Below are positions 7,801 to 44,028 of a DNA stretch of 64,000 bases, one piece after another. The DNA is taken from positions 2,294,001-2,358,000 of the forward strand of contig NC_092650.1 of the NCBI RefSeq assembly GCF_032118995.1. Reading direction: 5' to 3'. The notes beneath the pieces are model-generated. The model had not been told where the DNA came from and ran no database searches. It was given only the letters and a program-made list of their open reading frames with translations. Made by a program: the position numbers and the translations under genes. Within the stretch, counting starts at the first letter, position 1, and every line of letters begins with the position of its first letter. The stretch comes from Asterias amurensis. Lineage: Eukaryota > Echinodermata > Asteroidea > Forcipulatida > Asteriidae.

Positions 7801-10800
7801 AAATCTGTTGGTAATGAAGTATAAAGGAAGCAAACATAAATTCGGTTTGAAAACATTTATTTATTTTATTGAATAGTTTAAGTAGGATTTGACCTTTGTG
7901 CGGTGGAAATACAATGTATAGTAGAGAAGGTTTGTGGTAACACCATGTAAAATCATCTCTTATATCGTTTTGAACCACCCACCCATGTATCGCCCGCTAG
8001 CCTGAGTTTATTCATCGTTCGATGAAATAAGTTCAATAAGAAAAGTGGGCCCTCCGTCGGGTTTTCACATTACTTTATGATCATTAGGAGTATGAGATAG
8101 TGCCCAAGACTAGGCCCTGAGTTGAAGTCTTACCAATTGAGAACCAACAAGTAATGATGGTACATTATCATCATGAGTAATCAGCTTAACATGACTGTAG
8201 CTGTATTCACGTAACTTGGGACCCAGATCCAGCTTGACGAAATCTCTCATGATTTCTGGAGGCATTGCCATACTCTGCCATGGGTAGATTGGAATCAAAC
8301 CGGCCGACGGCTCGTTCTGGATGGTCATTCCCCAAATGGACACCCTAAGCTTCTCGTACTCAATTAGAAACCTGTTGAAAACAAAATACATGGAGAACTT
8401 TTTGTAAGTTTTACTAAAAGGTTTTTCTTGATATTTTTTAGGAGTTATTTTTGTATTTTTTGAGAATCAACTGTGTGCTCCAAGAAACATTACAGCCCAA
8501 GGTTAAATACTTTCAGGATTTAAAACAATGGTTTGTAGACGAGTCTGTCTAACATCAGTGTAAAATGTGGGATTGACAGTTTACTGTCCAATCAGAAACA
8601 TTTGAATTATGCATGAAGTCAACTTACTGTTGTTGACAAATGGCTGTCCAATCAGGGAAAGGTCTCACAATTAGATTATGAATTATGCATGAAGTACACT
8701 TACAGTTTATAGTTGGCTGTCCAATCAGAGAAAAGTCTCACAGTTAGATCATGAATTATGCATAAAGTCTACTTACTGTTGTTGACAAATGGCTGTCAAA
8801 TCAGAGAAAAGTCTCACAGTTAGATCATGAATTATGCATAAAGTCTACTTACTGTTGTTGACAAATGGCTGTCCAATCAAAGAAAAGTCTCTCATTTACA
8901 TTATGAATTATGCATGAAGTCAGGTTACAAGTTACAGTTAACAAATCGCTGTCCAATCAGAGTAAAGTCTCACACTTAGGTCATGAATTATGCATGAAGT
9001 CAACTTACTTGACAAAGTATAGAGCCCATGTTTGATAAACTTGTCCTCCTGGTTGGCCAATCAAGGATCCTCCACCTGCCATTTTGCCGTTGGTTTTCAT
9101 CCAAGCTGGTGCGGACCATGGACTAGCAATCAGCTTAAGCTCTCTTGGACTCATGTCTAGAGCTGCTCGTATCACTGGAATCTGCATTTTAAGAAACCCA
9201 GTCAAAACATGAACTTTGGTTATAATGATTCTTCCATTTTGCTTTTTAAGAGGTTCATCAGAATATAGTGAGATGTGTTTTGTCAGTGTTGTACTTTTAG
9301 TAATTAGTCAAATTAATTGTAGCATAAAAAATTACTTGGTAACAAGCAATGGAGAGCTGTTGAACACATTGTGAAAAATGGGTCCCTCTGAAGTAACAAA
9401 GTTGTTGAGGAAGAGGTAGTTTCTCACTCAAATACTAAAAGACTTCATCAGATCTACAGCCTTTTTGGCATCTGAAAGCACAAACATTTGTGCGACAAGG
9501 GTATTTTTTCTTTCATTGTTCCCTTGCAACTTTGATGACAAATTGAGTGGACATTTTCACAGATCTGGCAGGAAAAACACTGAATGTTGAAGTGCCTCGA
9601 GTGTCACTGAGTGACGGATATGAGCGCTTTATAAGAAGCCACTTTAATAGTTGTATAATAATGATTAAAGACCCTGGACACTATTGGTAATTGTCAAAAT
9701 CCAGTCTTCTCACTTGGTGTATCTCAACATATGCATTAAATAACAAATCTGTGAAAATTTTAGCTCGATTGGTCATCGGAGTTGCTAGATAACTATGAAA
9801 GAAAAAACACCCTTGTCACACGAAGTTGTGTGCTTTCAGATGCTTTGTGTGATTTCGAGACCTCAAATTCTAAACTTGAGGTCTCAAAATCAAATTCGTG
9901 GAAAACTACTTCTTTCTCGAAAACTACATCACTTCAGAGGGAGCCGTTTCTTACAATGTTTTATACTATAAACCTCTCCTCATTACTTGTTACCAAGTGA
10001 GGTTTTATGCCGATAATTATTGTGAGTAATTACCAATAGTGTCCACTGCCTTTAAATGAGGACCAGCAAACTGAAGTCTACGTTCATACCTTATAGTGGA
10101 TATCCTGATATGCTAATTCGAATTCACTGAGGTCATAATCTCCAGGGGTGTCAGCATATGAATACGTACTACTAGAGAAATCACAGCTTGCGATAGGTAC
10201 ACGTCCAGCGCTGTACTCCAGTCCTTTGAAAAGAGTTCAAGAGATTGTAATTAAAAAAACAACAATACGCTATTTTTTGGTTGCAGAATTGTCAACACTT
10301 AATTGTCAAACTTATTTCTTGAAAGTGCAAAAATAAATAATGGTCTGTACTCTACTGTAGTCTATTTAAAAAAAGTTGAGGAAGTTTAAAAACAACATTG
10401 CGTTGAATTGTTTTTTTAGAATTGTCAACAGTTATTTGTTTTATTTATTTCTTAGTCTAGGAGCAATAGAATGGCTGACACCAGCCGTGATATTTTACGG
10501 AGGCAACAAAGGCGATTGCCTCCATGCTCCCTGGTCATTGCCCTGGTGCCCTTGAAATGCTCCAGTAAAAATTTGCAATTTCCTCACAGGTTGCCCTTAA
10601 CCAAGGAGAAAATGGCTTGGTGCCCTTGCCCTTAGAAAAAAATGATGCAACAGTGTCCAGGGGTCGATTTCACAAAGAGTTAGGACTAGTCCTAACTTAG
10701 GACTAGTCCTAGGAGATATACAAATTGCATGGATAGTCCTAAGTTAGGACAAGTAACTGGTGCTAACTCAAGATAAGACTAGTCCTAACTCTTTGTGAAA

Positions 10801-12077: not shown

Positions 12078-12182
12078 ACTGGAACAATTATTGTGAAAAA
12101 AATCACGAAGTAACAGCTTCCCCCGCACCAAACCTGAAGAGATTAATGACAACTTTGTGATCAAGACAGTTTTTTTGTGATC

Positions 12183-12492
12183 AATTCAGTCTCCTGACCC
12201 TGACGATGACTAGAGCAAGCTAGCGAAGGCGAAGTTGAGACCAATTAAGAACTTACTCCGCAGTAATGGAACTAATAACAAGAAGTTCCCCTCAATCCAC
12301 AAGGTGAAAGTAGCCCGCCCGATTTTCTACCTTCCGCTCAGGTAGTAGTTAACAAGCAGGATAGTTCTTTTTAGAACTGAGAAGTCTCCCAAATTCTGAA
12401 AATCTACTCTGCAGAAGTAGAATATATGGCAAGACAAGTTCTCAAAAGAACATAATCTACCCAGCAAGTACACATGGTGTTACTGCAAACGA
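12183..12492 (-). repeat. Family J repeat, inverted
   Basis: Reverse of the 656-912 copy: AGTTCTTTTTAGAACTGAGA and CATGGTGTTACTGCAAAC are recognisable. It extends to GACGATGACTAGAGCAAGC, also seen in reverse at 27795-27820. Confidence 0.6.
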
Positions 12493-13559
12493 AAGTATAC
12501 ATCGATACCTCATCATGCAATGCCTCAAAGACGAAACCTATACCAGTTTTCTCTGTCATGATAGAAAACAGTGGTGAAATTAACCATGTAGTTAAGCCAT
12601 CAGGTATACCAGCACCTCTTGTAATGTTCTAGGGGCATAATTAATAAAAACCAATGATGCAGTTCTTGTGTATCCAACGTTTTATCATATCTGATTGGGT
12701 GTCTCTAAGCGAACAAATCAGTTATGAAGTGCTGTGGTTGACTATTTTGAGATCCATGTACCAGCATTAGTGAATAGAGTATTATTGTATTATGTACATC
12801 TAAGTGTTCAAGTTTGCGTTTGACTGAACAAATAAGGAGGGAGCCATTTTATCCAGCAGTTTAGCATACATAGCAAAAACATTTCAGACTATACTGTGTT
12901 TTGTGCAGCATTTACACTTTAAGTACATACTCTTTTTTTTGCTGCTTATACATAGAACCATTCATTTGTGTTTTTGTTGTTGTTGATCTCATTTGGGGGA
13001 CTCTGACATGGGTGATAACACCTGGAGGCGGGGGGGGGGGGGGGGGCTGACGGACTGGCTTTAGTGGGTCAACCTCGTGATGACCCACAAACCTGTTTCA
13101 TATTAATCGCTTGCACTTGATCAAGGGTCAAGGGTTTCAGATTGGTGCCTGTCTCTCCAGGATCAAGACAACGAAGGCCAAATAACAACAAAACAGTTGA
13201 TTGTCCCCGGCCACATCCTTTTTTGGGGCCGCATCCTTTTTTTTGGTACTATTTGTTATTTTTAAATATTTGTCAAAAAAAAAAAAAAGAGAAAACAAAA
13301 AGTTTTTATTTTATTTTTTAAATCCATCTTTTCAAGAGGACTGGCCTAGGAGCTTCTTCATAACAGGAACATTGTTTTTTAAGAGGACAGCAAAACAAAG
13401 AAACACAAAGCAGAAATGAGATTCGGGAATTCAGAATGTACCCTTTGTAAGCAGAACCTCTTTAAAACAGGAACATTGTTAAAAAAAAAATATATAAAAA
13501 ATAAAGCAGAAATGAGATTTTAGACATCAGAGTGTACTCTTTATTAGCAGAGCCTGTTT

Positions 13560-13770
13560 ATAACAGTGCTTTTTATAACGAACGTCGACTACATGGTGCT
13601 TGTTTGGTATGACACTGCTCATGGTCGTGGGTCTGAATGCCACCCAAGTAATATGCCTTATATTTTGTTCACAGAACTCGGGGGAAAGTACTGAGTATAC
13701 AGTGCTAACACACATCAGTGTAATGGGTAAAACCAAAATTTACAATCTTTATCCCCACATTCTTTATCCC
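13560..13770 (+). mobile_element. SINE-like tRNA-derived repeat
   Basis: GTTTGGTATGACACTGCTC resembles a tRNA A-box region and GTGGGTCTGAATGCCAC a B box. The tail CAGTGCTAACACACATCAGTGTAA is shared with 32795-32818, marking a dispersed family. Confidence 0.5.
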
Positions 13771-13869
13771 GATGCAAGTTTAACATCTCAATAGTGCATC
13801 ATACTCACTGGTGTAAGGGTAACTTCTGTTAAATTGGACATGTTTTATCCTTATTCTTTAATACAATAG

Positions 13870-15503
13870 AGTAACTGAAGAAGTTGCTGCTGGTTCGAAG
13901 GAGGCTAAGATGCTCTTGGATCCCAAACCAGCGTCTGCTAAGACAACTGTAGGAGCTAACTCTGCCTCAAAGATGCCGCCATTTGGGTAAGTCAGCAGTT
14001 TATAATGGTTTGGGTACCTTTTTTTATTATACAAAACACAAACGTCCACTCAAAACACAAACGTCCACACATTTACATTACACGGCTTCAAAATAACGAT
14101 GGTGGAAAAAGCTTTCCCTATAATACTACTTGCTGAGTTGCTGTAGTTTTTGAGAAATTAGTGTAAAAAAAATTACCAAAATAACTTTCTTCTCAGTGAG
14201 AACGGATTCACACGACTCTCTTGAAAACATTGCTCCGGTACTTTCACTTATCTCTTCACTGATGAAGCTGAAACTACAGGTAAATACATATCTTCATTCA
14301 CAGTGAGTAGGGATTCATTGATCTAAAAAGGGTATCAAAACCCTTTAAAATTGGATCCAAACAAGACAACAGGGCCCAGTTTCTATAAAACTGGGCCCTG
14401 TCGAGGAGGGTATTTATGCCTTCTAGGATGGGTAACTATGTTACTGGATAGCATCCAAATTGTTAATATTTTAAATTTGATTATGAGTTCATCGTTGGAG
14501 CATTAATTTAATGTCATTTTCATTACAGTGCTAAGAGACCCGCCGGAGGTTTAGGGAATGTGTTGGGGCTGATTAACAAGAAAGCTAAGATTAGCGTCTT
14601 AGAGAAGTCTAAAATTGACTGGAATAGTTTCAAGACAAAGGAAGGAATTGCAGATGACTTGAAGATACACAACAAGGGCAAGGATGGGTGAGTATAGGAT
14701 TAATCAAATAGGTCAAAGGTTAAGACCGGCAGTATGGATTCTTACCATTAAATATGTTCATCTGGATTGTTGATTTAATCTCAAGCAAAAGGTGCATTTT
14801 TACAAATCCAAAAATAGTTAATAATGTAAATTAGTTACATTACACTCGTCAATAAACTTAGAGCTTCTTCAGACTGGTGACTATGTCCAATGCTGAACTG
14901 TCTCATTAAAGGATTTGGGTTCTTTTTGTAAACACAAAACACATTAAACTTATTACATGGTTTGAAGAAAATGACGGTCGAAGGCTTCCCTTAAAGTATA
15001 ACTTGCTGAGGTGCTGTAGTTTTTTGAGAAATGAGTAAAAGCTTTCTACCATCATTACTGTCAAACTGTGTGAGTTTGATGTAAATCTGTGGACATTTAC
15101 AAGCTCCAGAAAATTTATGATCAAACAGTTATTTCGTTGTTCAACCCCCAAAAATCAAATATATTTTCCCGTCACTTTTTATGTTACACTTGGTTACCTC
15201 TTCATGATTGTTCAAGCAACTTTTATGGTAGCAGGCTTTGTTTGTACCCGCAAGCTTTTGCGCTTGCAAGCTTTCACGCCTTCACACTTGGCGCTGCTTG
15301 CAAGCTTTCCTGCTTGGCGCTTGCAAGCTTTCATGCTTTGCGCTCATAGTTTATTTTCTTCTTCAACTGCCTATCACAAACTAACTACTTGTTTGTCTAT
15401 TTGTTTATCAAGGTATGTCGAGAAACAGAAGTTTTTGGCACAGGCAGACCAGCGTCAGTATGAGAAAGAACGAGATATGCGAATGGGACAAGCTAAGAGG
15501 TGA
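13870..15503 (+). CDS. CFDP1: CFDP1/BCNT-family chromatin protein, C-terminal exons only
   Basis: Three exons: 13870-13986, 14529-14687 and 15413-15503 (stop TGA). Phases 2-2-2 join cleanly. The first contains [17 protein letters not shown], which matches the segment before the BCNT-C domain in human CFDP1. The second and third encode the BCNT-C domain itself: [37 protein letters not shown], then an R/Q/E-rich tail ending MRMGQAKR. The family (yeast Swc5) is a subunit of SWR1/SRCAP-type H2A.Z-loading remodelers in the nucleus. The usual acidic N-terminal half was not found in the roughly 1.8 kb between the GBA start and 13870, so the 5' exons are either cryptic to me or lie elsewhere. A family A MITE begins about 40 bases after the stop. 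Possible AATAAA signals lie at 16206 and 17008. Confidence 0.85.
14000..14240. repeat. Family H repeat, partial
   Basis: Shares GGTTTGGGTACCTTTTT, TTGCTGTAGTTTTTGAGAAA and AAAGCTTTCCC blocks with 14905-15105 and 31834-32200. Located in a CFDP1 intron. Confidence 0.55.
14905..15105. repeat. Family H repeat
   Basis: From ATTAAAGGATTTGGGTTCTT through TGAGGTGCTGTAGTTTTTTG to AAATCTGTGGACATTTACA. Located in the last CFDP1 intron. Confidence 0.6.
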
Positions 15504-15542
15504 CATGCCCAATCATCTGGAACTAAGTGTGGCACTGGACGT

Positions 15543-15910
15543 AAAGCCACTGGACGTGTTTGGCAATTGTCAAAGACCAGTATTCTCACTTAATTATCCC
15601 AACATATGCATCAAATAACAAATTTGTGAATATTTTGGCTCAAGTCGTCATCGAATTTGCAAAATAAAAATAAAATAAAAACACCCATGTTGCATTACCT
15701 TGTATGCTTTCAGATACATGGTGAAAGGCCTCAGCTGAAGTCTTACTATTTGAGTGAGAAGTTCCCTCTTTCTCAGAAACTACTTTACTTCAGAGGGAGC
15801 CGTTTCTCACAATATTTTATACTATCACCAGTTCTCCATTGCTGGTTACCAAGCATGTTTTTATGCTAACAATTATTTTGTGTAATTATCAATAGTGTCA
15901 AATGCTTTTA
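15543..15910 (+). mobile_element. Family A MITE in CFDP1 3' region
   Basis: Diverged copy from AAAGCCACTGGACGTGTTTG to AATTATCAATAGTGTCAAAT. It begins about 40 bases after the CFDP1 stop codon, so it is probably transcribed in the 3'UTR. Confidence 0.75.
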
Positions 15911-16501
15911 ACAATGCAGGGATCAAGTGGACAATGTCTTTTGTTAGGAATTCTTTGGTCTGTTTTTAGTAAAACATCAATTTTGTTTTGTACAGTAGTA
16001 TTGACAATGAAGTATGAAATGAATCATGTAGAATAATTTTTGTTGACTTTTTTTAAATTTTTTTGTCATCCTTTGTACAAATACTTCTTTACAACGTGTA
16101 ACTGTTTATTTGTTATGTTAAGACCAGAAGAAATTAATGAGAAAATTCTTTGCAGTTTTATTTAGCTATTTTTAAAAAGCTGTAACAACCTCAGAAAATG
16201 CTCAAAATAAATCATGGTGACACTGATAGGAAAAGGGCTCAATTTGATAGAATTGCTGAGGCAGAAAATATTGCTTAACCATTGTCTGCTAAGCAGAAAT
16301 GAGCAGGATACCAGTCACAAACTGTACTTGTGTCATGTTAGTTTGGCTGGTGACCTTATTATGGTTAGCAGATATTTGTCATGCTTGGCTACTTGTTGTA
16401 CTTAAGCAGCTCTACGAAATTGGGCTTAGGTGATAAAATGTAGCTGGTTTATGAATTTCTGAAACAAGAACTACTCTACAAAAAGGAGTATTTCTTATCT
16501 T

Positions 16502-16811
16502 AAAGCCATTTGACACTTTCGGAAACAGTTTTGTCCAAGACCCACACCTAGTTATCACAACTTCTATATAATAACAAACCTGTCATCTGAGTCGGGAGAA
16601 AATAACGGGAAAACCCACCCTTGTTCCCGAAGTTTTGCCGTGTCATGACATGTGTTTAAAATAAATCGTTTTAATGTTTTCTCAAAAAGAAAAGCATTTC
16701 ATGGAATAATATTTCAAGAGAAGTCTTTCACCATTACCTTCTGTAAACCCTGTAAGTTATTTGTAAATCTGTGAGATTTTTTTTCTGTTCCGAAAGTGTC
16801 CAATGGCTTTA
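16502..16811 (+). mobile_element. Family B MITE
   Basis: Terminal inverted repeats AAAGCCATTTGACACTTTCG and CGAAAGTGTCCAATGGCTTT. Interior blocks GAGTCGGGAGAAAATAACGG and AAGCATTTCATGGAATAATA are shared with 23868-24271 and 59623-59994. Confidence 0.9.
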
Positions 16812-17329
16812 AAGGTTTGAATTTTTTTTTTCAAGTTAATGCAAAGATTATGTCTTTGTGTCTGAGACCAACATAAATGTACAAAAACGTCTTCTGAGAG
16901 TATTTTTTGTGTCAAGCTTTCAGTAATTAATTTCCATACTGTTGTTCACTCCCAGATGTCTGATTTTGGTTGTTACTGTGTATATTTAAGGAGTATAAGT
17001 TGGATCAAATAAATTGAATTTGGATCAAACTTCCTTTTTATGATGTGTTAAGTTTGTTTTCTGGTCCTGAATGTAAGACTTATTTGACCTTTTTTTTGCA
17101 AGAACAATATGTGGTTAATGGCAACAGTTATTTTTCTTAATTGACCAACATACTCCTAATTTAGTGCTTTCAACCATTTTGAATATATTATTGACCAAAA
17201 AACCACAAAAACACCGACAACTCTTGCAACTTTGCAAAACAAAGTTATCAGCTAAACCGTACATTTACCGTTACTGTGACACTGGTATCACACCAAGTTC
17301 TTGCTTAGAAAAGGAATTTGCCCTGTTCC

Positions 17330-17445
17330 TTGTATTTTGCTAGCACAGAAATTCGGAGCCTGGCCGTGCAAGCAGACTGGAATGGTGATCGTAAGCACTG
17401 AATTCGGCGGTTAGCAGAGATTCAATTGGGCCCACTGAACGGCTT
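17330..17445. repeat. Family E foldback repeat fragment
   Basis: ATTCGGAGCCTGGCCGTGCA, GTAAGCACTGAATTCGGCGG and TTCAATTGGGCCC match the other family E copies. Confidence 0.5.
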
Positions 17446-17735
17446 GATGAAATCGGGTCCTGGATCTGAGCATCAACCTTACGTAACCTTTAATACGTCA
17501 TATCTTTGGTCAATAAAAGGTTTCAAAGTCCGTATTCAAACTTCGATGAGTGGAAGGAATGTCTGTATCTATACCTCCATAAATAAGAGTATGCACGTGT
17601 CATCCTTGATTGATTGTACTTTCTAAAGATCGAGAAAGTGTGCATTTTGGGGGTTCTGCTCTCTCCAATTCAACAGTCCAATGGACATGATTTCAACAAC
17701 ACCTTCAATCTCTACGGCTCGGACACTATAATATC

Positions 17736-20709
17736 ATGGGAGAAATACCAGCAGGTTACGGCGCAGTGTTATTCGTCGTCCTCGCTACCCTCATCTGTGG
17801 CGTAGCACGGAGACTACTGAACAAGGCTCTACCAGCAGGGAGTAATGTCAGACGATATGGTGGCGAGATCATAGCCACATTCCAGCTTGTTACAGGGATG
17901 CTGGAAGGTGATGTCGTCATGGAGGTAAATAATTTACTGAGTGTTCTTCCCTCAACGATTTTTCGTTAAAAACATAATTCATTCAAATTCAATTCAATGT
18001 GACGTTTATTCCATACTCTTTTGGGAAAATAATATCCAATAATTCAATATCAGAAAGTATCAGTGAACAAAATCAGAAGCGCATAAAACTGCACGCAATT
18101 AATAAAGGTTTTCTCGGTCAAATTTGGCGAGTGGGCAGTCAATTTCATTTTCATGCGTTCGAGTTAAAGCTGTTTTGCCTATCCAGTTGTTACTGCGTTT
18201 CAAATTCAGAGATCGGCCATTCAATATCGTTTTGAGTCGAGTCAAATTCCTTTAGAACTCTGTTCAATTTAGTGTATCGTCATACTTTTTTTCCCCGTGA
18301 CACACACGCCACAAGAAGCATCTGTAAATTTGAATGCTGCTTTGATGGGGCAGGAAAAGAAACCACTGTGTCATCTTGAACTTGGTAATACCATTGGTAT
18401 TATTATGAACAAATCATGGGATAGATTTCCGTATCATAGCTGACACTACTTTTCATTTACTAGTTTTTATCAAAAAGAATATCTCATTTGAGTAAATTAG
18501 AGACTAATTTATTACCAATGGTGTCAGTGTCTTTAAAGGCAGTGGACACTATTGGTAATTGTCAAAGATCAGTCTTCTTACTTGGTGTATCTCAACATAT
18601 GCATAAAATAAGAAACCTGTGAAAACTTGAGCTCAATCTGTCGTCGAAAAAAAACCTAGTCACACGAAGTTGTGTGCTTTCAGATGCTCGATTTCGAGAC
18701 CTCATATTCTAAATCTGAGGTCTCGAAATCAAATTCATGGAAAATCACTTCTTTCTCAAAAACTACGTCACTTCAGAGGGAGCCGTTTCTCACAATGTTT
18801 TATACTATCAACCTCTCCCCATTACTTGTTACCAAGTAAGGTTTTATGCTAATAATTATTTTGAGTAATTACCAATAGTGTCCACTGCCTTTAATATTGC
18901 TTGTTCTGTATTATAGGAGAATGGCTTAATAGCCTACATGATCTACCTATGGTTTTTCTTTGTACTTCTGGGCTTCACATTCGATGATGACTGCACGGCC
19001 AATCTTGGACTCGCCTGGCAAGCTTGGATCAAGGGGGAGACGGACGGCCTCGACGCATCCTCCACCGGTAACTTTGACGTCAAATAAAAAATACGCCCTC
19101 CTATAAAACGAACATCGTTTACTATAGACCATTTTCGAAACGACGGCTTCGGCTTTGGATTCGGCTCAGGCTAGCTTGGCCCCGCCGATTGATTTGACAA
19201 TATTGCGCGTGCTTTGCGTATAGTTATACGCGCTCAGGCTAGGGCTTCAAAAGCCGAAGCCGTGGTATCGAAAAGGGCCAAAGACGTTGAAAAACGTCAG
19301 TTAACTATTTGTTTCCATAGGTCCTTTTGGTTGATAAGCAGTTTTGAACAGCTAATTTTATTTTCTCGGTTTTATAAACTACATTTTCATAAGGCTCACC
19401 GTATAATATTGAAGTCACGGTGATTGATGCACTGGCGATTTTATTGCCTGAATTCTATATTCACATTTTTACGTGTTTTTGTTTAGCTTCACCAATCATC
19501 ATCAAATTTCCATGGAATTTATCTTCCTCTCTTTATTTTTGGAAGCATGTTCTAATTGCCCTTGAAATTAAATGATAAGAACCACACTGGAAATTCGGTC
19601 ACATGTCATGTTTTGTAAAATCAAGAATAAGAGGACAATACTCGGTTTGCGGTAACACCGCGGAGTAGATGTTCGGGGGTTCGGGAGACTTCTCAGTTCT
19701 GAAAAGAACTGTCCTGCTGTTTTTTAAACTATACCCGAGCGGATATTATAGAAAATAGGCTGGGACCACGACTTAAGCTAATAATATATAGGATCGCGAT
19801 TAACTGTACTACCGCGGAGTCAATTCTTGGTCTTAAATTGGACAAAACTTGTGCCCAAGACAATTATTTATAATACACTGGTATTTTACTTTTTAGTGGA
19901 ATTGGTGAACTTTTTCCCTTTTTTTTGTCTAGTTCTGTCCCCCTGTAAAAAAATTTCTTTGCACCAACAGCCGTTTTCCAAGTCCTTGGCGGTCAACTTG
20001 CCTTTCCTTATGCCAAACGGCTGTGGAGGGCAGCACCATCAGCTCGCCATGGTTATAAATGGAAGCACATGATCCAAGATCAATGTGACTCAGCTTTGAG
20101 GTCCTCCATCTTGGGAGGAATGGCTGCCGAGGCTCTGGCGACTCTTATCTACTTCTTGGCAAGGAAGTACTTGATGCCAAAGGGTAAAGCAAAGAGTATT
20201 GCTTTTGATTCCTTTGTACAAGTTGGTATAATTTCAATAGGTGAGTACTATTTTAGTTTTGTGGATTGTAAACTTAGGTAGGCCTGAATGTTTGGTTTTT
20301 TGCAAGACTACAATATCAAAAAAGACCAGGAGCTCCAAATAATAAATGAAACCTGTACAGATTGCGCAAAAATTACCTTATAGTTTGAACATACGAACTT
20401 AAAATTGTGATAATGCAGCTACGATACAAACTGTCACTTGTTTGGATGTTAGTTCAGCATAAAACGGACGAAGATTGACACTGTTTTTATCTAATGCTTT
20501 GGGTGTTTTCTCCCGCTCTTTTTAAAGGTCTTGAATGGACAGGCATGATGTTCAACCCAGCCCTTGCATCTGCACTGACATTCAACTGTCACAACCATCC
20601 AATGGGGGAGCATCTATTGGTATACTGGGTGGCGCCCTTGGCGACTATTGCTCTTGTACATGTACTCACAAAGAAGACGGCCATATTGGATGCAAAGAAG
20701 ACCGATTAA
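17736..20709 (+). CDS. AQP12: Superaquaporin (AQP11/AQP12 family), complete
   Basis: Four exons: 17736-17924, 18917-19067, 19971-20240 and 20528-20709. They total 792 bases, giving 263 residues, the usual family length. Hydrophobic segments include GAVLFVVLATLICGVARRLL, IIATFQLVTGML, AYMIYLWFFFVLLGFTF, ILGGMAAEALATLIYFL and LVYWVAPLATIALVHVL. The second NPA box is intact (MMFNPALASALTF). QDQCDSALRSS and VYWVAPL resemble vertebrate AQP12 and AQP11. The position of the first NPA box appears to read TANLGLAWQ, so Asn-Leu-Gly replaces Asn-Pro-Ala/Cys. Family members are intracellular (ER or vesicle) water/glycerol/peroxide channels; that role is inferred. The C-terminus KKTAILDAKKTD lies in the first unit of a 37-bp tandem array. 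A family A MITE ends about 24 bases upstream of the exon 2 acceptor. Confidence 0.92.
18533..18893 (+). mobile_element. Family A MITE next to an aquaporin splice acceptor
   Basis: Copy from TAAAGGCAGTGGACACTATT to AGTGTCCACTGCCTTTAA. A stray right end of another copy (ATTACCAATGGTGTCAGTG) lies just before it at 18511-18534. The element ends about 24 bases before exon 2. Confidence 0.9.
19125..19285. mobile_element. Family N foldback element
   Basis: CATTTTCGAAACGACGGCTT at the left pairs with AAGCCGTGGTATCGAAAAGG at the right. Internal copies of GGCTCAGGCTAG are also seen. About 160 bp, in aquaporin intron 2. Confidence 0.65.
19644..19850 (+). repeat. Family J repeat, internally deleted
   Basis: CGGTTTGCGGTAACACCGCG passes directly into GGAGTAGATGTTCGG, lacking the first half present at 656-912. 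Confidence 0.6.
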
Positions 20710-21042
20710 GAACCCGGCCATGTTGGATGCAAAGAAGGCAGATTAAGAAGACGGCCATATTGGATGCAAAGAAGGCAGATTAAGAAGACGGCCATGTTGG
20801 ATGCAAAGAAGGCAGATTAAGAAGACGGCCATGTTGGATGCAAAGAATGCAGATTAAGAAGACGGCCATGTTGGATGCAAAGAAGGCAGATTAAGAAGAC
20901 GGCCATGTTGGATGCAAAGAAGGCAGATTAAGAAGACGGCCATGTTGGATGCAAAGAAGGCATATTAAGAAGACGGCCATATTGGATGCAAAGAAGGCAG
21001 ATTAAGAAGACGGCCATGTTGGATGCAAAGAAGACAGATTGA
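20673..21042 (+). repeat. 37-bp minisatellite seeded on the aquaporin stop codon
   Basis: Ten head-to-tail 37-bp units of the type GAAGACGGCCATGTTGGATG followed by CAAAGAAGGCAGATTAA. Unit 1 (20673-20709) is the last 12 codons of the aquaporin plus its TAA. The other nine continue in the 3'UTR, each ending TAA (TGA in the last). Units differ by a few substitutions. Confidence 0.95.
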
Positions 21043-31700: not shown

Positions 31701-34700
31701 TTTACTTAAGTCGATCAGAGCATACTATTCAAAGCGTTTGGTTGTCAACCACTGGTTCTTTTCAGAATCAACACAATTCAAAAGACGTTAACACATGGTG
31801 CTACTGCAAACCTCACCCAATGAATAAGTTGTTAAGGACTTGGGTACTTTTTCAAAATGTCCACAGATTTACATTAAACTTACAGGGTTTGAAGATAATG
31901 ATAGTGAAAAGCTTCCCTTCAAATTATACTAACTGAGGTTGTGTAGTTTTTGAGAAATGAGTAAAACAAGTCACAAAATAATTTTGGTCTCATGAGACTA
32001 AAATTATTTTAGCATGTCAAATCCCCTGATATTATACCAAAACCATAGCATAACTGCTTATGTTTTTACATGCTAAAACTGAGACGAAAATTATTGATTT
32101 TACTCATTTCTCAAAAACTACAGCACCTCAGTAAGTACAATTTCAAGGGAAGCTTTCTACTATCATAATCTTCAAACTATGTTGTGGACATTGTGTACAA
32201 ATTTAGCTACTTCTAACTCAAAGTTACAACAACCTTTTATGCTGCTGAGAACAACACATTACTTTTCTTCTGTACTTGGCTAATTTTGTAAACTTGAATT
32301 ATAAAGAATCGTTGACAGCTTGACTGTATCATCTAGAGTATAATATTTGTGTTAAAATCCGTGATGAATTTTCACAGGTTCCCAAATTGCCAGCTGGATA
32401 CCAAGTTTCTCCGTCGAGGTTTCACATCGTCATTTACTGCAGCAGAGAGCTGTACATACTTCACAACTCACTAACATGGTGAGTCTAACACAACAGTAAG
32501 CCTGGGTGACTAGTGTCATAAGTTGCGACTATTTGAGGCGTGACTAGTCGAGTAGTTAATTTCACTAGTCGCCCAGGCCTACTACGCAGTAGGATGGTTT
32601 AATACGGGTATTTCAAGTTGTAAACTCAGATGTTGGATTTATTTATTTGATTGTTGCAGTACCCGCTGCCAAAATATAGGACTCGAACGGCCTCTAGCTA
32701 CCGGGCAATCTCGGTGGTCTAGTTGGTAAGACACTGCTCTAAGAATTGCAAAGGTTTTTTGTTCACATAACTTGTCAAATTACTGAATTTACAGTGCTAA
32801 CACACATCGGTGTAAGGTAAATAAATAAATAATTGTATTGTTTCTCTATCAGGCCACCCAGGTCCAGCAGATGTTTCCAAATTATCCAGTGCATGTACTC
32901 CTTGAAGATCTGCGAGTCACACAGGCTGTTGAAGTTACTATTGATAACATCTTAGAAGGAAGATTAGTGCTGCCGCCTGTAAGTTAGAGTAGCTTCTTGA
33001 TTAGGCGATTGAATATTTTGTGATATAGACTCTTGTTCATGAGGTGTTGGGTATTATTTAGCCTCACAAAGAGCTCAATATGATCAGAATTGTGTATCTA
33101 ACTTAATTTTTTAGCTAAGTGTGTAGACACAATACAAATCACTGTGGTAATAATGCTGCAACTCATCTGGGCCCAATTTCATGGCTCTGCTTACCGTAAG
33201 CACAGAATCGGCGCTTACGGAAGCAGGGAATTCTGTGCTTATGGCAAGCGTATTTCACGGGTTAGCAGCGAATTTGGGCTTCTGCGCGTGCGTACTTCAC
33301 GTTACTAGGCATTCTACGCTTACAAGGCTAGCGCAGAAGTTCGGCGCTTGCACGTAAGCAGGGAATCGCGACCGTAAGCGCAGAATTCGGCGGTAAGCAG
33401 AGCCATGAAATTGGGCCCTGAAGATGCATCTTAGTGCTTCGTTAAACCAAGCCCTAATGCCATAGAAGACCGCTTGTTGTATTCAGTGTTTACCCCTTGC
33501 TTTTTGCTGTGTGCTTCTGACTCTCTCTCTCTCTCTCTTTATTCATTTCTTTTCACTTGACTGATTTTGTTATACTAATAAACCTGTTCTCGTTTGTTGT
33601 GTTCTCATTTAGCCTTTGAGAAAGACTCTGCTAGGGTCAAAACATCAGGCCATTAACTATTTTTTTTAACTTGCTGTATTTTTTGTCTTGCAGCAGTTTA
33701 TGTCCTGTCTTTCATGTATGTCTGTCATTTTGTCTGTCCGTCCATAGGCTGTAGGAACATCAGCCGTTGCTTCCCGGACCTAGATGTTGCCATTTGTTTA
33801 AAGATAACTTTTGTAATGATTTTGGGGGTTGAACAAAGAATTGACTAGAGTGGTATTCGAACCAATGACCTCCGGATTAACGTGCCGGCGCTCTACCAAC
33901 TGAGCTATCTAGCCCTATGTTGGCGGTGTCCCTATTTTGTCAATATCTTTGTTCGGGGGTGCCAGTCAGAAGTCATACAAGCGTTAACTGCCGTGTAGCC
34001 GGGGCTCACACCCAAACTACGATACAACCTGGGAAGCGGCAGCCAGGGGATCATCTTAAGGGGATGCGACTGTTTCAGATATCAATATAGACCATATATC
34101 GATAGATAACTTTTGTATCACTTTTATAGAATGTAGATTTACCATCATGTTGACTATATTATAGCATCTTGTATTATTCATTTTGAATTACTGTGATTTC
34201 TGCAACAATGAATGAACAAAATATTATTAGTGTTTTATTGAATGATTCAGAAAAGGCCCATCAGTCATAGAAATCATTATTGATATGGTATCTTCCCAAA
34301 CAGGAAACCACTGAAGCAAATGCTACCACTCCAGCCGACGCTATCCAAACCCCTTCATCCAACCCATCCCTAAACGCCAACGCCAACTCAAGACGGACAG
34401 GAGAAAGCCCATCTTTATACGACACACCAGGGAGGTCGGTAGAGGCCGACGTGGTGAGGCAGAGATCGGCAGCGGCCGACGTGGTGAGACAGAGGTCGGT
34501 AGCCGCTGATATGGTGAGACGATTTGGTGAGATGGAAGAGATGGTTCAGAATGATAGACATCAAGGAGTTGATGAACGTGGCGATCGATCCGCTGAGATG
34601 GCTTCAGTCTCTACCTCAAGGTAAACTTCAAAACTTCGATATAGTATTATAAATGGTGGCTAATGATTTGGTTATAGTATGCTAAAACAAAAAAAGTAAT

Positions 34701-36736
34701 TGTGGACTAAGCAGTTGCTCATCATCCATAAAAATTATTCATGATATCGCAACTTCTCAAACAGGAGACTACTGAAGCAAATGCTGCCACTCCAGTCGAC
34801 GCTATCCAAACCCCTTCACTCAACCCATCCCTCAATAACTACAATGTTTCACATTGTGAGAAACGACTCACGAAAGTGTTAATTTCTCTTTCAATATTAA
34901 TAATGATAATAGTGGCTTCTTTTGAATCGCTCATATCCATCACTCAGTGACACACAAGGTGCTTCAACATTCAGGATTTGTTTTCCTGCAATGTATGAAT
35001 TATGAGAACAATTCCTTTTTACATGTTATTTGTACGCTGTGGTTCGATCCAGTTTTCTTCTACTTCGGTTTTTGAACTCCTTCTTTTGTAACATCAGTCC
35101 TGGGGTCGATTTCACAAAGAGTTAGGACTAGTCCTAACTTAGGACTAGTCCTAACTTAGGACTAGTCCTAGAAGAGTTAGGACTTACTCGTCCTAACTCG
35201 AGATAAGACTAGTCCTATCTCTTTGTGAATACCCAGGATTACTATAAAATTCCTGTTAATATATTTGTATGTGTTTAAATGTGTATATCAATTTTTTTTT
35301 CGAAGGTTTTTAAATTTATATCTATTTGTATATGTGTATATTGTAGAATCTTTTCTTTAGGATATTTTATAACGTAGTTAAGTAGGCCTATATTTTAATT
35401 TGATTACATTTTTAGCTTTTATTTCTGTTGTTAGGCGCATTGAGGAACCTGTGATTCATAATTAACCTTATTCATAATGTGCTTTATAAATGCTGTTTAT
35501 TATATAGCCAAGTATAAAAGACGTGTTTCCATCCTTGTGTCTTTCTAATTATCTTATGTCTGAGGGTGCATGTTCCTAAACCTTCTTTCTTATTTACTTA
35601 TTGACAGTGTTGGTGCATGTTCTGATACCTGTTTCTTTATTTACTTATTGAGAGTGTTAGTGCGTGATACCTGTATCATTATTTACTTATTGACAGTGTT
35701 AGTGCGTGATACCTGTATCATTATTTACTAATTGAGAGTGTTAGTGCATGATACCTGTATCCTTATTTACTTATTGACAGTGTTAGTCTGTATACCTGTA
35801 TCCTTATTTACTTATTGACAGTGTTAGTCTGGATACCTGTATCCTTATTTACTTATTGACAGTGTTAGTGCATGTTGTGATACCTGATTCCTTATTTACT
35901 TATTGACAGTGTTGGTGATGATGGGAATGTACCCTTCACCGACGGTCCTCAAGCCCTCCCCGGTAGATTCTCAAAATCCTCAGCAGAGAGAGAAACCATT
36001 CTTAGACAACGTAAAGAATTATTAATGAAACTCGCAAGAAGGTTAGTAAACAGAGCGGGAAAGATCCAGGATTTCAGGTTTGGAGGGGAGGGGGGGGGGG
36101 ACTTGGGCACAAACTTTGAGGGCTAGTTTCAAAGTTGAATTTTATCAGTAACACCAAAGTATATATTCTGGTGACTAAATTTGTGTTGGATGATAATCTA
36201 TGCATTTGATGTTTTAGGCAAAAAAATAAATATATGTTAACGACCCCACCCACTTCCTTTTTAGGGGCCACCTTCTTAAAAAAAAAAATTGTTTAAAAAA
36301 AAAGGAAATATTTAAACGATCTCACTACCCTTTTTCAGAAGTATTATTTTTCCTAATTTTGAAACGAGAAATTTGTTAATAATTTTTTTCTTTTTAATAA
36401 CGTATTTTTTACCAAAGAGCAAACAAATGTTATCCCCTGGAAAAAAAAAACCCTAAATAAAAATCAACTAACTCTATATTGTATTTTTTCTCCACAAGGC
36501 GATTCCAAGACAAGCAGGCACATTCCACCAAAACCACTGCTTCCTCCAATAAAAACAACCAATCAGCTTCAAACACCTTAAGAAACCAGTCAGCCAATCA
36601 GAATCCTTCCTCTAGAGAATCATCAACAAGCTTAGCAGCGGGTGCTACAGCGCCCTCTAGTGGTGAAGAGGATCGTGCGCAGAAGCGTTTCGCTGCGTAC
36701 GAAGCCGCTATGAGGAGAATGAACCAGCAACATTAA
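25740..36736 (+). CDS. AMFR: E3 ubiquitin-protein ligase AMFR (gp78), complete
   Basis: Fourteen coding exons: 25740-26054, 26452-26544, 26842-27006, 27847-27999, 28562-28602, 29370-29502, 29924-30034, 30594-30727, 31318-31529, 32378-32478, 32853-32978, 34304-34620, 35910-36041, 36499-36736. They total 2271 bases, giving 756 residues (human 643). A multi-span membrane part (FYKFIIIFGVLNVQTLEEMV and others) is followed by a RING finger (DDCAICW, CNHLFH, CLRSWL, CPTC), then HFFHFDGSQIASWIPSFSVEV. A CUE domain has MFPNYPVHVLLEDL and DNILEGRL. A G2BR-like helix (ERETILRQRKELLMKLARRR) comes next. A C-terminal VIM (RFAAYEAAMRR, pattern R-x5-AA-x2-R) binds p97/VCP in relatives. The enzyme ubiquitinates ERAD substrates at the ER membrane. 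The extra length is mainly exons 1 and 12. The acceptor at 25723 implies a 5'UTR intron. Confidence 0.96.
26083..26197. mobile_element. Family C palindromic element
   Basis: GGGTTACACAAAGAGTTAAG and CCTAACTCTTTGTGAAAATA flank AGGACTAGTCCTAAG palindromes. It starts about 28 bases after the AMFR exon 1 donor. Confidence 0.8.
26198..26363 (+). repeat. Family D repeat
   Basis: AGGCCTCGAAATAACCCATG to CCCCTTCAAGAACGAAGTTC, matching 45048-45272. It directly abuts the family C copy. Confidence 0.65.
27127..27528 (-). mobile_element. Possible LINE ORF remnant (C-terminal part)
   Basis: An open frame of 133 codons in AMFR intron 3. The middle reads FPLKVPRPNLRYPVLFIVPK, then NRVNATTKGFIHRLTSLFNS and DIFHQSITAFKVQVKQVL. 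That is the style of the C-terminus of jockey/CR1/L2-type reverse transcriptase ORFs (charged, TTKGFIHRLTSLFNS-like). No catalytic YxDD region is present. The call rests on resemblance only. Confidence 0.35.
27540..27820 (+). repeat. Family J repeat
   Basis: ACCATGTGTGTATCTACTTG to CTAGCTTGCTCTAGTCATCG, in AMFR intron 3 just before the exon at 27847. Confidence 0.6.
28685..29055 (-). mobile_element. Family A MITE, inverted
   Basis: Reads GTTGGTAATTACTCAAAGTA through the GAGACCTCAGAATTAG hairpin to CAATAGTGTCCAGTGTCTTT. In an AMFR intron. Confidence 0.85.
29519..29870 (-). mobile_element. tRNA-derived SINE, inverted
   Basis: Begins with an (AATA)n-like tail and ATATAGCGCTTTTCACAC, and ends with an inverted B-box-like sequence (CCGGGATTCAAACCCACAC). 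It lies in the AMFR intron between the exons ending 29502 and starting 29924. A short relative of its 3' end is near 29145-29235. Confidence 0.6.
30103..30401 (+). mobile_element. Family G foldback element
   Basis: AAACCTGTTTCAGAGTGGCT at the left and AAGTGCCGTTCTGAAACA at the right. The interior is shared with 4448-4762 (GGAGCAACTCTAGGTC, CCTGAAACCAAGGCGCTCCA-like). Confidence 0.7.
30857..31292 (+). mobile_element. Non-LTR element 3' tail (LINE/SINE)
   Basis: Ends ATTGTAAAGCGCTCAGTGAC ... GGGCGCTGTATCATGC followed by (TTA)n, the usual 3' end of a non-LTR retroposon. An apparent 142-codon hydrophobic frame inside looks incidental. It sits just before the AMFR exon at 31318. Confidence 0.55.
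31834..32200. mobile_element. Family H foldback, fullest copy
   Basis: TTAAGGACTTGGGTACTTTT at the left. An inverted second half contains TGAGAAATGAGTAAAAC / TTTTACTCATTTCTCAAAAA and AGCTTCCCTTCAAATTATAC / TACAATTTCAAGGGAAGCTT pairs. About 365 bp, in an AMFR intron. Confidence 0.75.
32690..32835 (+). mobile_element. SINE-like tRNA-derived repeat
   Basis: TCTCGGTGGTCTAGTTGGTAAGACACTGCTC resembles a tRNA 5' half with A box. The tail CAGTGCTAACACACATCGG matches 13708-13733. Confidence 0.55.
33170..33420. mobile_element. Family E foldback, fullest copy
   Basis: GGGCCCAATTTCATGGCTCT at the left and AGAGCCATGAAATTGGGCCC at the right are perfect inverted ends. The interior is CGTAAGC-rich, in AMFR intron 11. 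Confidence 0.85.
33843..33915 (-). mobile_element. tRNA-like sequence (SINE head or pseudo-tRNA)
   Basis: On the minus strand GGGCTAGATAGCTCAGTTGG begins a tRNA-like A box. A GTT triplet sits at the anticodon position and GGTTCGAATAC resembles a B box. The acceptor arm partly pairs but the T arm pairs poorly, so it is not a good functional tRNA. Related sequence continues to about 34065. Confidence 0.5.
34433..34522 (+). repeat. 30-bp in-frame coding tandem repeat in AMFR
   Basis: Three in-frame 30-bp units encode RSVEADVVRQ, RSAAADVVRQ and RSVAADMVRR, between the CUE domain and the G2BR helix. Confidence 0.9.
34690..34850 (+). pseudogene. Partial duplicate of an AMFR exon with its acceptor
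   Basis: Copies the intron end and 5' part of the exon at 34304. CTTCTCAAACAG|GAGACTACTGAAGC parallels CTTCCCAAACAG|GAAACCACTGAAGC, followed by GACGCTATCCAAACCCCTTC in both. The duplicate loses similarity after about 34837. No consensus donor continues the frame, so it is either a decayed exon or a cryptic alternative acceptor. Confidence 0.8.
35101..35232. mobile_element. Family C palindromic element
   Basis: GGGGTCGATTTCACAAAGAG start, AGGACTAGTCCTAACTTAGG repeats, CTCTTTGTGAA end. Confidence 0.85.
35590..35920 (+). repeat. AMFR intron minisatellite copying a splice acceptor
   Basis: Eight units of about 41-47 bp, each of the form TTATTTACTTATTGACAGTG followed by TTAGTG and GATACCTGTATCC. 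The last unit contains the real acceptor (GACAG|TGTTGGTGATG at 35910). Six of the eight units keep GACAG and two read GAGAG. Confidence 0.9.
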
Positions 36737-37415: not shown

Positions 37416-37471
37416 TATGATGGGATGTACAGGTAACTTATGAAACTTTTGTATATGTACAACGTTGGCAT

Positions 37472-38535: not shown

Positions 38536-38618
38536 ATGACATTTTGAGAAGGCGCCACAATTCTAAATTTAAATCCATTAATGCAAGCTTTAAATTCACG
38601 TTGTCCCAATCAGTCACT

Positions 38619-38996: not shown

Positions 38997-39073
38997 AGAT
39001 GGAACGTTCCATATGATGAGGTGAAGCCACGTTTAGCGAAACATTCCATCCTTCAACCTTAACAATGTTCTCA

Positions 39074-39298: not shown

Positions 39299-40301
39299 TT
39301 CCATGAACACGAGGGCGTTTAGTGCAGCTTTGAAAGGTCAGTTTGTACGCTGTCGTGCGTTGATAATCGTTGACAGGTGAAGGGCACCAGTGTCTTTAGT
39401 GAAGATAACTATAAACTGATTTTAGTGATGATCGTACGTCAGGTTTTCATCTGTGCAACAATTGTGCGAGCGACTGGCCTACTGCACACTGGTGGTGGTC
39501 TAGCGTGCAAAAGTGCAAAAAGAATGGAACAGAAATGAATGCTAAATAACACAAAAATGCAAGCATAATAGCATTATGTCATTAAATGTTGTAAAAGAAT
39601 GAACACAACGTGACCTCCGAGGATCTTCTTTGTTTAATATTTTATAATAGTGGATATTGAAAGTTAAAAGTTGTTATTTGGTACTACTTAAATCAATCGG
39701 ATCACACGGCGCTTGATCTTGGAGAAAAGAAAAAAAAAGGAGATAAGTTAAAGTCAGGTTAATCCATACAAACATGTACAAAGTTCGTGTGAATAAACTT
39801 TTTGGTTGAGTTAATTAATTTTTACTAATATAAGGATTGTTAGAATCATGATTGTATGGAAGTGTGATTTGAGGATATTATTGAAGATATGGGTAAATAA
39901 AAAAATATGAACTATTTGTTCTATCAAAGTCTTGGTCTTATCAATTGATAACATGACTTGTTTTATAGTGAAATACATTGTATGCATTGCTGAACTTTTC
40001 AAAATTGATGTGTTTTTTTTTCTCGTTTTTTTTGTGTGTGTAAAGTTGGTGCAGTACATTTAAAGTTTTCTATATAAAAATGTAATAAGTTTAAATATTA
40101 AAAGTTAGCAAAGGAGAATAATATGTATATTCATTTAAAATAACTAACTTTCATAGAGTTTATATTTTGACCTGACTGACTGTCACCTATGTGAGATATA
40201 TATGAAGTTTAAAGGTCAAGAAAAAGTACATTGTTATTGAAGCCATAGGAGGCCTTGCACCGAGAAACAAAACAAATTGCACGTACAATGAGCTGGGCTT
40301 A

Positions 40302-40704
40302 TAAAGGCACTGGGCACGTTTGGTAATTATTCAAAGTTTTTATGCTGATATATATATCAGCATAAAAACTTACTTGGTAATGAGCAACGGAGAGCTGTTA
40401 ATAGTATAAAACACCTTTTGAGAAACGACTCCATCTGAAGTAACGTAGTTTTTTAGAAAGAAGTTGATTCTCACTAAAAATTTTGAATCTGAGAAAGACT
40501 TTAGGCCTGGGATACCTTTCCCAGGCATCTGAAATCACAAGTAATATTTGTGAAACAATAGTATTTTCCCCATTAATTTCTTGCGACTTTGATGACCAAT
40601 TGAGTCCAAACTTTCACAGATTTGTTATTTTGTGCGTATGTTGGGATACACATAGTGAGAAAACTGGTCTTTGACAATTACCAACAGTGTCCAGTGTCTT
40701 TAAA
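40302..40704 (-). mobile_element. Family A MITE, inverted
   Basis: TAAAGGCACTGGGCACGTTT to CAACAGTGTCCAGTGTCTTT. A short ATATATATCAGCATAAAAAC insertion-like duplication lies near 40340. Confidence 0.8.
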
Positions 40705-41017
40705 GCTCCTAATGGAAATATGTATTTCCTATTAATATTTATTAATCTATTTTCTAATGCACTGTCGTTTCATTACTTGGTCTGTTTGTTCTTTGCAGCA
40801 AAACCAAAACAAAATTATATGCCAGAGATTTAAATTAATTTAGAGTCTTTTTCTTTATTGCCACTTATCTCCAACTACATGTACTTGGAGAAGCTAGGGG
40901 TTGAATTTTTGTTGAAATGTAAATACATTTTGTTTTAATGCAGAGGATTGTTGTCATACAGGTTGTTTTTGTCTTGTTCCCTTTTTAAAAGGTGATTTTT
41001 AGTGGTTCTGTCTCTGT

Positions 41018-41398
41018 TTAAAGACGCTGGACACTATTGGTAATTGTCAAAGACCAGTCTTCTCACTTGGTGTATCTCAACATATGCATAAACAACAAAC
41101 CTGTGAAAATTGAGCACAATTGGTTGTTGAAGTTGCGAGATAATAATGAAAGAAAAAAGCACCCTTGTCACACTAAGTTGTGTGCTTTCAGATGCTTGAT
41201 TTCGAGACCTCAAATTCTAAATCTGAGGTCTCTAAATCAAATTCTTGGAAAATTACCTCTTTGTTGAAAACTACATTACTTCAGAGGGAGCCGTTTCTCA
41301 CAATGTTTTATACTATCAACAGCTCTCCATTACTTGTTACCAAGTGAGGTTTTATGCTGATAGTTACTTTGAGTAATTACCAATAGTGTCCACTGCCA
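41018..41398 (+). mobile_element. Family A MITE
   Basis: TTAAAGACGCTGGACACTAT to ACCAATAGTGTCCACTGCC. Confidence 0.9.
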
Positions 41399-43049
41399 CT
41401 AATAGATCGTCTGGGTTGAATTTTCTTAGATTGATATTTACAGCACACCATGTATTATTTTGTCCGAAATTGTTTGTTTGTATACAAACGTATCATTGGT
41501 ATAATGGCATGCTGTGTGTCATCTGTTGTTGTAGATTTACTCTGATTGTTGATGCCGAAGACATCAGTCAAAGCGACTCATTGGTCCCCATTACACAATT
41601 GTTGCTCGCTGTGAAGGGGACCCATGGATCCCAATCACAGAGTGCTGTAATTGTTTTGTTATACCATATTGAGAAACAAATGGTGATTTTTGCGTAGCAA
41701 TTGATACATTTTGTTTTGCATTTTGGTCTGCTATACAAGGGAAAATGGTTTTCTGTTGTAACTATTTGAGGGATTATACAATGTAAATATATTTTCTCAA
41801 ACTAATTATAATGTAATAACATGTTCATGCACCGTTGTGGTTCAAACACATGTACTTGTTTAATATCAGACGTATTATTGTAATGAAGTTCATCATTTTA
41901 TACCCATTGATTTCATAACAATAAATGAACAATTTAACCATGCTAATGTTTGATTTTAATACGTTGAGGTTAACTAGATAATCGCTCCATGCTTTTTCAT
42001 TGTAGGGCAGAGTGGTGCAGTAGTGGAGACCTAAAACAAACAAGAATTAAAAATAAAGAAGAAGTTGCCTTTGATATTAAAATTATTTTTAATTTTAAAC
42101 ATGCCTGCTTTTATAAACAATAAATACAATCTTTTGGGTTAAATAGGAAACAATTATTAACCTGAAAATTGGAAATAAAAAATTCCTTAACCTCCTTAAC
42201 TTTTAACAGCTTTTGATTCTTACAAAACGAAGAAAACTTAAAAAAAGACAACATTTCCTTCTTAAGAATTTTACTGGAGACAGTGTAGTTTGAAACAATG
42301 CTTGGTTTTTTTGCTTGTTTGCTGTATTTTTCTCAGCTTTTGTGAGCTCAACTGCTCTTCAACATTGGCTCATGATTTGTTGCATATGGAAATTAACAAT
42401 GGCATTTAAAAAACTTTTGTTTAAAAGTTGCCAGCTACATTTATCAATACCAAGCAAACCATGCATGACAAAGCTTCAGACTGATGTTGGTTTTGATGAG
42501 GACACTAGCCCAATTCATTTAGTTTTTTAGTTAATTTTTCTTTTAAATATTGGTTTACCCGAATTTATTATCATAAATATCCAAACACCATTCAAAGCCT
42601 AAAAACTTGATGCATGTATATTACAGATTCAGCCCAATTAATGTTATAATTGAAGCATACAAAATTTTCTTTAATGTCACAAAAAATGCATAGAAAACTG
42701 TAATTTCCCCAACAAACTCATGCAACATGCATAATAGAAATGAAACAAAAGATGAACAGAGTGGGGAAATATGGCCATAATAAATTTAAAAGATGTCAGA
42801 ACTAACCATATTGTTACACAAATTTACAATAAATGGCAAACTGTGATATTAGTGGGGAGAACTCCTTTAAAACCAAAACATAAATTAAAAATCACTAAGA
42901 AACATTTTAAGTCACCTGGAAATAGAATTTTTTTCTTTCAAACATAAGAGTATATGCTTACGAACAATAAAACAATTTTTTTAGTAATTGTTTGTCACAA
43001 TTTATATGTTTAAAACATATATAAAGTTGTTTGGGGGGGCTGACTCCGC

Positions 43050-43285
43050 CTACCCCTTTTGTGACGTCAATCGAGGCAGACTTTGCCTGCAATGCGTATA
43101 GTAAACACACGTGCAAAGTACATGTACGTCCAAGTCATGAGTTGGTACATTTCAAAAAGTGTTTTTTTTTTTTTTTGAAACGTACAAACTCACGACTTGG
43201 TCCGTACATGTACTTTGCAATTGTGTTTACTCTACGCATTACAGGCAAAGTCTGCCTCGATTGACGTCACGAACAGCGCCCTCTC
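43050..43285. repeat. Long palindrome with poly-T loop
   Basis: Two arms of about 100 bp around a T16 tract near 43164. The left arm has GTGACGTCAATCGAGGCAGA, TACATGTACG and CAAGTCATGAGTTGGTAC. The right arm has the complements ending TCTGCCTCGATTGACGTCAC. Arms are about 90% paired. Each carries a TGACGTCA CRE-like octamer. No other copy is in the window. Confidence 0.9.
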
Positions 43286-43559
43286 GGGTCGGGGTCTACT
43301 CTTAAATTTGTAAATAACATAAGAACTGATTTTTTAAAACCTTAGTTAACTGTTTATTCCAGTCCACTCATCAAAACACATATTAGTGACAAAAGCTTTA
43401 TTTTGAAAAAATACCACTTCCAGGTGACTTTAAACCATTTCAACTGTGTTGCAAGTTTCACATCAACATGTAATATGATAGTCTTGTTCATTCATAATTA
43501 CCACCAAATTATAATACAACTGCTTTTATTAGTTATCACAAAAGCCTGTGAAGCCTAGT

Positions 43560-44028
43560 GAAGTTTGGAATCATAGATCCATTGGTTTATGGCTACTTAT
43601 TCCTTTTTTTAGTCCATTGCTGAGTGAAGAAGTTTGGGACCATAGATCCATTGGTTGTGTGCTACCTATTCCTTATTCAGTCTGTCACTCATTGAAAAAG
43701 TTTGGAACCAACTAGATCCATTGGTTCTTGGTTACTTATTCCTTATTCAGTCCATTGCTCATTGAAAAAGTTTAAAACCATAATTAGCTAGATCCATTTG
43801 TTACTTATTCCTTATTCAGTCCCTTATTCAACGAAGAAGTTTGGAACCATACTAACTAGATCCATGGTTTCTTGGTTGCTCATGCCTTATTTAGTCGGTT
43901 ATTCACTAAAAAAGTTTAAAAAACCAAAAATGAATTCATTGGTTACTTATTCCTTATTCAGTCCATTACTAGCTGAAGAAGTTTGGAACCATATTAACTA
44001 GATCCATAGGTTCTTGGTTGCTCGTATC
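43560..44028. repeat. Roughly 70-bp minisatellite overlapping the ZNF236 stop codon
   Basis: Seven imperfect units of about 66-75 bp (plus strand: GAAGAAGTTTGGAACCATA, TAGATCCATTGGTTCTTGGT, TACTTATTCCTTATTCAGTC). The unit nearest the gene contains the last codons and TAG of ZNF236 (43969-43971). The other six lie in its 3' flank. Confidence 0.9.

Follow-up and report, generated by a model that had tools for sequence, protein, structure and literature searches.

Minisatellite-like tandem duplications that extend over a 5' or 3' exon-intron boundary have been described in lancelets, where they are called 'mirages'. They are known in Adh3, in the globins BflGb6 and BflGb9, in TnC and in PGBD5, and their units measure 10 to 160 bp. 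The AG/GT signals are kept in many copies, the edges of the clusters escape homogenisation and splicing is reported to be regular (PMC3087553, PMC3902484). Tandem duplication over AGGT is also the basis of a model of intron gain (PMC4974935; model in PMC3087553).

Arrays of a similar kind are encountered in the sea star Asterias amurensis, in the whole stretch of 64,000 nucleotides analysed here (the window). The splice-edge arrays are like mirages in that tandem units lie over an exon-intron boundary. They differ from the lancelet cases in their host and in the presence of stop-codon arrays beside the splice-edge arrays. A homogenised interior with divergent edges, which is a trait of mirages, is found in the AMFR array, partly in the aquaporin-like and GBA arrays, and not in the zinc-finger array. 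Tandem duplication over AG/GT is common to the sea star arrays and to the published outline of AGGT intron gain; the sea star arrays copy an existing edge into the intron side, with no new intron shown. Among the papers listed by a literature search, in which subscription journals were poorly covered, there was no echinoderm case of boundary-spanning arrays. As far as that search reached, the sea star arrays are a known pattern in a new phylum.

Four arrays and the exon edges within them

Tandem Repeats Finder recovers all four of the arrays that had been reported in the window, essentially where they had been placed. The edges inside them are a splice donor in GBA, a splice acceptor in AMFR, and stop codons in an aquaporin-like gene and a zinc-finger gene. 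The features are as follows.

8134..8371, minus strand: next GBA exon; its first base (G) completes the split AAG codon
8603..9009, minus strand: donor-type array in the intron of GBA (glucosylceramidase), 76 bp x 5.3
9009..9181, minus strand: GBA exon ending ...YFVK, with a codon split as AA/G; placed by alignment to human glucosylceramidase, start (acceptor) by eye
20528..20709, plus strand: last coding exon of the aquaporin-like gene, stop at 20707-20709; start by eye, family not confirmed
20671..21040, plus strand: array in the aquaporin-like gene, 37 bp x 10; the first unit includes the final 12 codons and reaches the stop, the remainder lies 3' of the stop
34304..34620, plus strand: predicted preceding AMFR exon, donor after 34620, in phase with the exon start at 35910
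35589..35917, plus strand: intronic array of AMFR, acceptor type, 42 bp x 7.6, with 8 acceptor-like sites
35910..36041, plus strand: AMFR exon, first base 35910; weak, sub-threshold G2BR match, 3' limit approximate
43560..44023, minus strand: array of 69/142-bp units in the zinc-finger gene; the exon-proximal unit includes approximately the final 17 codons together with the stop
43969..44135, minus strand: last coding exon of the zinc-finger gene, ending ...VNMVPNFFS*, stop at 43969-43971; start by eye

The original prediction held that each array has an exon boundary as its terminal unit, expands away from the exon and is placed exactly on the boundary. The arrays do have the exon edge in their terminal unit and the rest of their length outside the exon. 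Their placement on the edges is not exact, as they intrude into the coding sequence by 1 base strictly in GBA (8 with a small gap), by 8 in AMFR, by 36 in the aquaporin-like gene and by about 52 in the zinc-finger gene. In GBA, AMFR and the splice-edge arrays outside the window, the authentic boundary is that of the terminal unit beside the intact exon.

Both GBA exons align to solved human glucosylceramidase. The donor GT is at 9007-9008 on the minus strand and the exon ends at 9009, so that ...YFVK(AA) is followed by GTAAGT. This word is present in four of the five units examined and absent from one, and the exon-proximal unit is the least similar to the others (5 units scored). A frame read past the proximal donor meets an immediate stop (FVK*). 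To the left of the window, at a distance of 2.7 kb, lies a GBA paralogue (L002) with a separate array at this edge; the unit there is a different one, of 104 bp, and includes about 55 exon bases. The junction of the paralogue's array, at TGATTGG, joins intron and exon, and this word occurs at both places in the GBA gene of the window. Judged by its letters, the junction has the pattern that duplication between short matches would leave.

The second gene is classed as AMFR-like from its RING exon, for which 2lxh and 4lad are the best matches. Its array unit resembles TTATTTACTTATTGACAG/TGTTAGTG. All seven upstream acceptor copies reach an in-frame stop in 41 codons or fewer, and the frame is open only from the proximal acceptor at 35910. 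Of the seven units scored, the two outermost retain a 47-bp form; the inner five are 41-42 bp long and more alike, a pattern that points to growth inside the array. The AMFR coding exon at 34304..34620 has a repeat of its own, an in-frame 30 bp x 3 at 34432-34520.

A Pfam search of the aquaporin-like gene product gave no match. The zinc-finger gene has C2H2 matches, and its putative name, ZNF236, is that of the original prediction. The exon-proximal unit is the least similar to the others in the aquaporin-like array (9 of 10 units scored). The interior of the zinc-finger array is not homogenised, and its units are less alike with distance from the exon. Neither array is a mirage in the strict sense, because the edge that is spanned is a stop codon and not a splice boundary. 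A simple account would suffice for both, namely that the frame entering the array ends at the first stop that it meets.

Frequency of arrays at exon edges

The four placements had been considered unlikely to arise by chance, and the estimate for the window does not bear this out. Genome averages were used for this estimate, because an ad hoc exon map of the window recovered 15 exons but not all of those that are known, GBA 9009-9181 being one that it lacked. The A. amurensis genome is described as having 16,531 genes with on average 10.07 exons (PMC10625585), from which about 43 edges per 64 kb are obtained. Fifteen non-overlapping arrays lie above a cut of score 80 and period 12, and cover 4.4% of the window bases. 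For 45, 60 and 80 edges, which are the genome average and larger guesses and not an annotation of the window, 2.0, 2.7 and 3.5 edges are expected inside arrays by chance, and four are seen; the probability of four or more is 0.14, 0.28 and 0.47, respectively. When only the four long arrays are considered, all of which are on an edge, P is 0.003 to 0.02, a choice that was made post hoc.

Elsewhere in the genome, 10-kb stretches were sampled at round positions, and 19 of 21 were kept (190 kb). The two left out are pure satellite over their whole length: L011 (C1:9000001-9010000) with 325 bp x 30.9, and L018 (C3:6000001-6010000) with 495 bp x 20.2. The sampled stretches contain 24 arrays, with a coverage of 4.3% that is raised by large arrays in L015 and L024. 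One boundary array was recognised among the 24, which is a lower bound because such arrays were recognised by eye. In L010, two sampled arrays lie inside one coding-looking frame. Another observation concerns two nuclear COX1 copies (L004 and L005), at G000:C5:658874-660214 and C5:675294-676634. They are separated by 16,420 bases, close to the length of a mitochondrial genome, and the 4,341-base loci are identical. Either complete mitochondrial DNA was inserted in tandem or the pair results from a join in the assembly. The mitochondrial contig itself follows the echinoderm code, with AAA read as Asn and AGA as Ser where COX1 is conserved, and a lancelet origin of the DNA, considered at first because of the mirages, was rejected on this ground.

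Pairs of the donor word AGGTAAGT were counted across the genome, with the reversed word as the control. There are 41 pairs with a gap of 20-50 and 95 with a gap of 51-81, that is, 136 per 13,407 single words (1.01%). The control has 70 and 121, or 191 per 21,153 single words (0.90%), and in this genome word count there is no excess of paired donor words. An apparent excess of CAGGTAAGT pairs (27 versus 6) was rejected, as 18 of the 27 come from two arrays and the excess is gone with AGGTAAGT (41 versus 70, gap 20-50). For TTTTACAG, there are 340 pairs versus 422 in the control; none of six arrays, picked among the 100 of 340 listed, ends on an exon in the stretch read, and L045 extends beyond that stretch. 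Near-identical sequences in which two AGGTAAGT words are spaced by about 37 bases occur at G000:C2:18608361, C2:30211776, C15:1017854 and C16:1419369, and are apparently a dispersed repeat family.

Array loci were defined as chained matches, called by eye, with single pairs dropped for donor and control alike. There are 10 per 13,407 donor words and about 9 per 21,153 control words, a ratio of 1.75 (p = 0.24). The control count was made by eye among the matches listed (100 of 121), with clusters C6 and C20 each counted once; counting their parts separately would add control loci and thus lower the ratio. Three of six single AGGTAAGT words, drawn from the sampled stretches plus L008, L009 and the window, are real donors (GBA in the window, L022 with a TPR match, and L014 by eye only). 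The Markov expectation for AGGTAAGT, 12,543 to 17,907, yields no usable real-donor fraction. The rate at real donors relative to the control would be 3.5-fold if 35% are real (p = 0.016), 2.5-fold if 50% are (p = 0.079) and 1.8-fold if 70% are. The genome-wide excess that was expected of the original claim is therefore not seen in this limited word test, yet the test would be compatible with a bias as large as about 3.5-fold.

The exon side of the 10 chained AGGTAAGT arrays is confirmed by homology in five and assigned by eye in two. Three have no assigned exon: L037, which has no clear exon, and L042 and L043, for which the stretch read does not cover the array start. The arrays with an assigned exon are listed here, together with a carboxylesterase array.

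L031, G000:C1:36705100-36706300: vWA domain, 39-bp unit, peptide homology
Porphobilinogen deaminase HMBS: 32-bp unit, peptide homology
Bromodomain gene: 62-bp unit, peptide homology
Formin-like FH3: 64-bp unit, peptide homology
L038, G000:C1:37342300-37343200: GALNT, 86-bp unit, peptide homology
L034: 19-bp unit, open frame and splice signals only, no family match
L041: 69-bp unit, open frame and splice signals only, no family match
L016:6828-6992: acceptor-type array in a carboxylesterase gene, 39 exon bases in the unit

Boundary arrays with exon and adjoining intron in the unit are thus those of GBA and AMFR plus nine outside the window, L034 and L041 being without homology. In the vWA array, the 39-bp units are open in frame throughout, and therefore the distal donors could add 13-residue units. 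Each GALNT unit combines a piece of exon with GTAAGT, the branch-like TACTAAC and CACAG, and resembles a mini intron plus exon. Against the baseline of three in six, seven of the eight arrays with a readable exon side adjoin an exon (p = 0.035), or seven of all 10 (p = 0.17). Three single-pair tandem donor loci (L032, L033 and L035), at which no clear exon was found, had been dropped from the chained set; with these added, the tally of tandem donor loci next to an exon becomes 7 of 13 (p = 0.5).

Probable tandem duplication over the exon edge

The reading that best accounts for these observations, to which we assign a probability of about 0.78, is that the arrays are ordinary minisatellites, produced by tandem duplication of a unit that by chance includes an exon edge, and that they are tolerated since the gene can still use the copy nearest the exon. 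The segment duplicated in tandem would run from the end of an exon into the intron or, in the stop-codon cases, from the last codons into the 3' UTR, and further copies would then be added by slippage or unequal exchange. The copy beside the exon would retain the right frame, splice site or stop, with normal splicing presumably at the proximal site; the duplication would be nearly neutral for this reason, and the remaining copies would be free to drift. One of the two explanations originally offered, that selection keeps one unit and the arrays only look anchored, is supported by the stop just past the GBA donor and by the seven stopped copies upstream in AMFR. The frequency of edges inside arrays, which is about what coverage predicts, is also consistent with tandem duplication of this kind. 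Counting against it in its plain form are the four long arrays of the window, all on an edge, the seven exon-adjoining arrays among the eight with a readable exon side, the rates of 2.5- to 3.5-fold at assumed real-donor fractions of 50% and 35%, and the zinc-finger interior that is not homogenised.

The second explanation originally offered was that exon edges are preferred start points. In 11 splice-edge arrays, the exon part of the unit is 2 to 56 bases (1 for GBA without the gap). As a share of the unit, the exon part varies between 0.03 and 0.84, with a mean of 0.42; this share is compatible with a uniform distribution (KS p = 0.39), and no pile-up at zero is seen across the 11. Given that a start point at the edge predicts a share of about zero, the duplications do not begin at the edge. 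With the exon share scattered and donor pairs no commoner than reversed ones, preferred start points at exon edges find no support. In seven of nine donor arrays the period is not a multiple of 3, and thus the donor arrays are not coding expansions.

A weaker bias may nevertheless be considered, in which tandem duplication, in addition to being tolerated, slightly prefers exon edges and especially donors, perhaps by way of DNA breaks linked to transcription or splicing. The ratio of 1.75 for chained arrays (p = 0.24), the real-donor ratios of 1.8 to 3.5 for assumed fractions of 0.7 to 0.35, and the position of every long window array on an edge all lean this way. However, the breakpoints are scattered over the exon, no more than 7 of the 13 tandem donor loci lie next to an exon once L032, L033 and L035 are included, and the TTTTACAG word gives fewer pairs than its control and, within the stretch read, no exon end in six picked arrays, so that a bias of this kind seems unlikely. 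It is similarly doubtful that splice donors in A. amurensis undergo tandem duplication at a higher rate than comparable DNA, by a factor of as much as about 3.5.

The arrays could alternatively be functional, with repeated donors or acceptors kept by selection as decoys or for alternative splice forms. Copies retain consensus donors, the open vWA units would let distal donors add 13 residues at a time, and the same edge carries an array in both GBA paralogues. However, lancelet globins are reported to be spliced regularly despite their mirages (PMC3087553), distal sites in GBA and AMFR run into in-frame stops, and unit sequences drift, to the point that one in five GBA units is without GTAAGT. 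A function of this kind is therefore very improbable.

HiFi reads are longer than these arrays. That the four arrays are an assembly artefact is hardly credible: although tandem arrays are often misassembled, individual units here have distinct substitutions, and the A. amurensis assembly is described as built from HiFi and Hi-C data (PMC10625585).

Duplicated edges as a possible supply of splice sites

If the doubtful donor bias were true, there would be a real mutation bias at exon ends, feeding new exons and introns; units of the GALNT type already resemble ready-made exon-intron modules. A pattern of lancelet genes is extended to an echinoderm, as far as the literature search reached, and its rate is compared for the first time, if roughly, with that of a control. 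If arrays meet edges at the rate that coverage predicts, then by extrapolation thousands of exon edges in the genome would carry tandem copies. Such duplicated splice sites would be a standing supply, relevant to the origin of introns and exons and to annotation errors.
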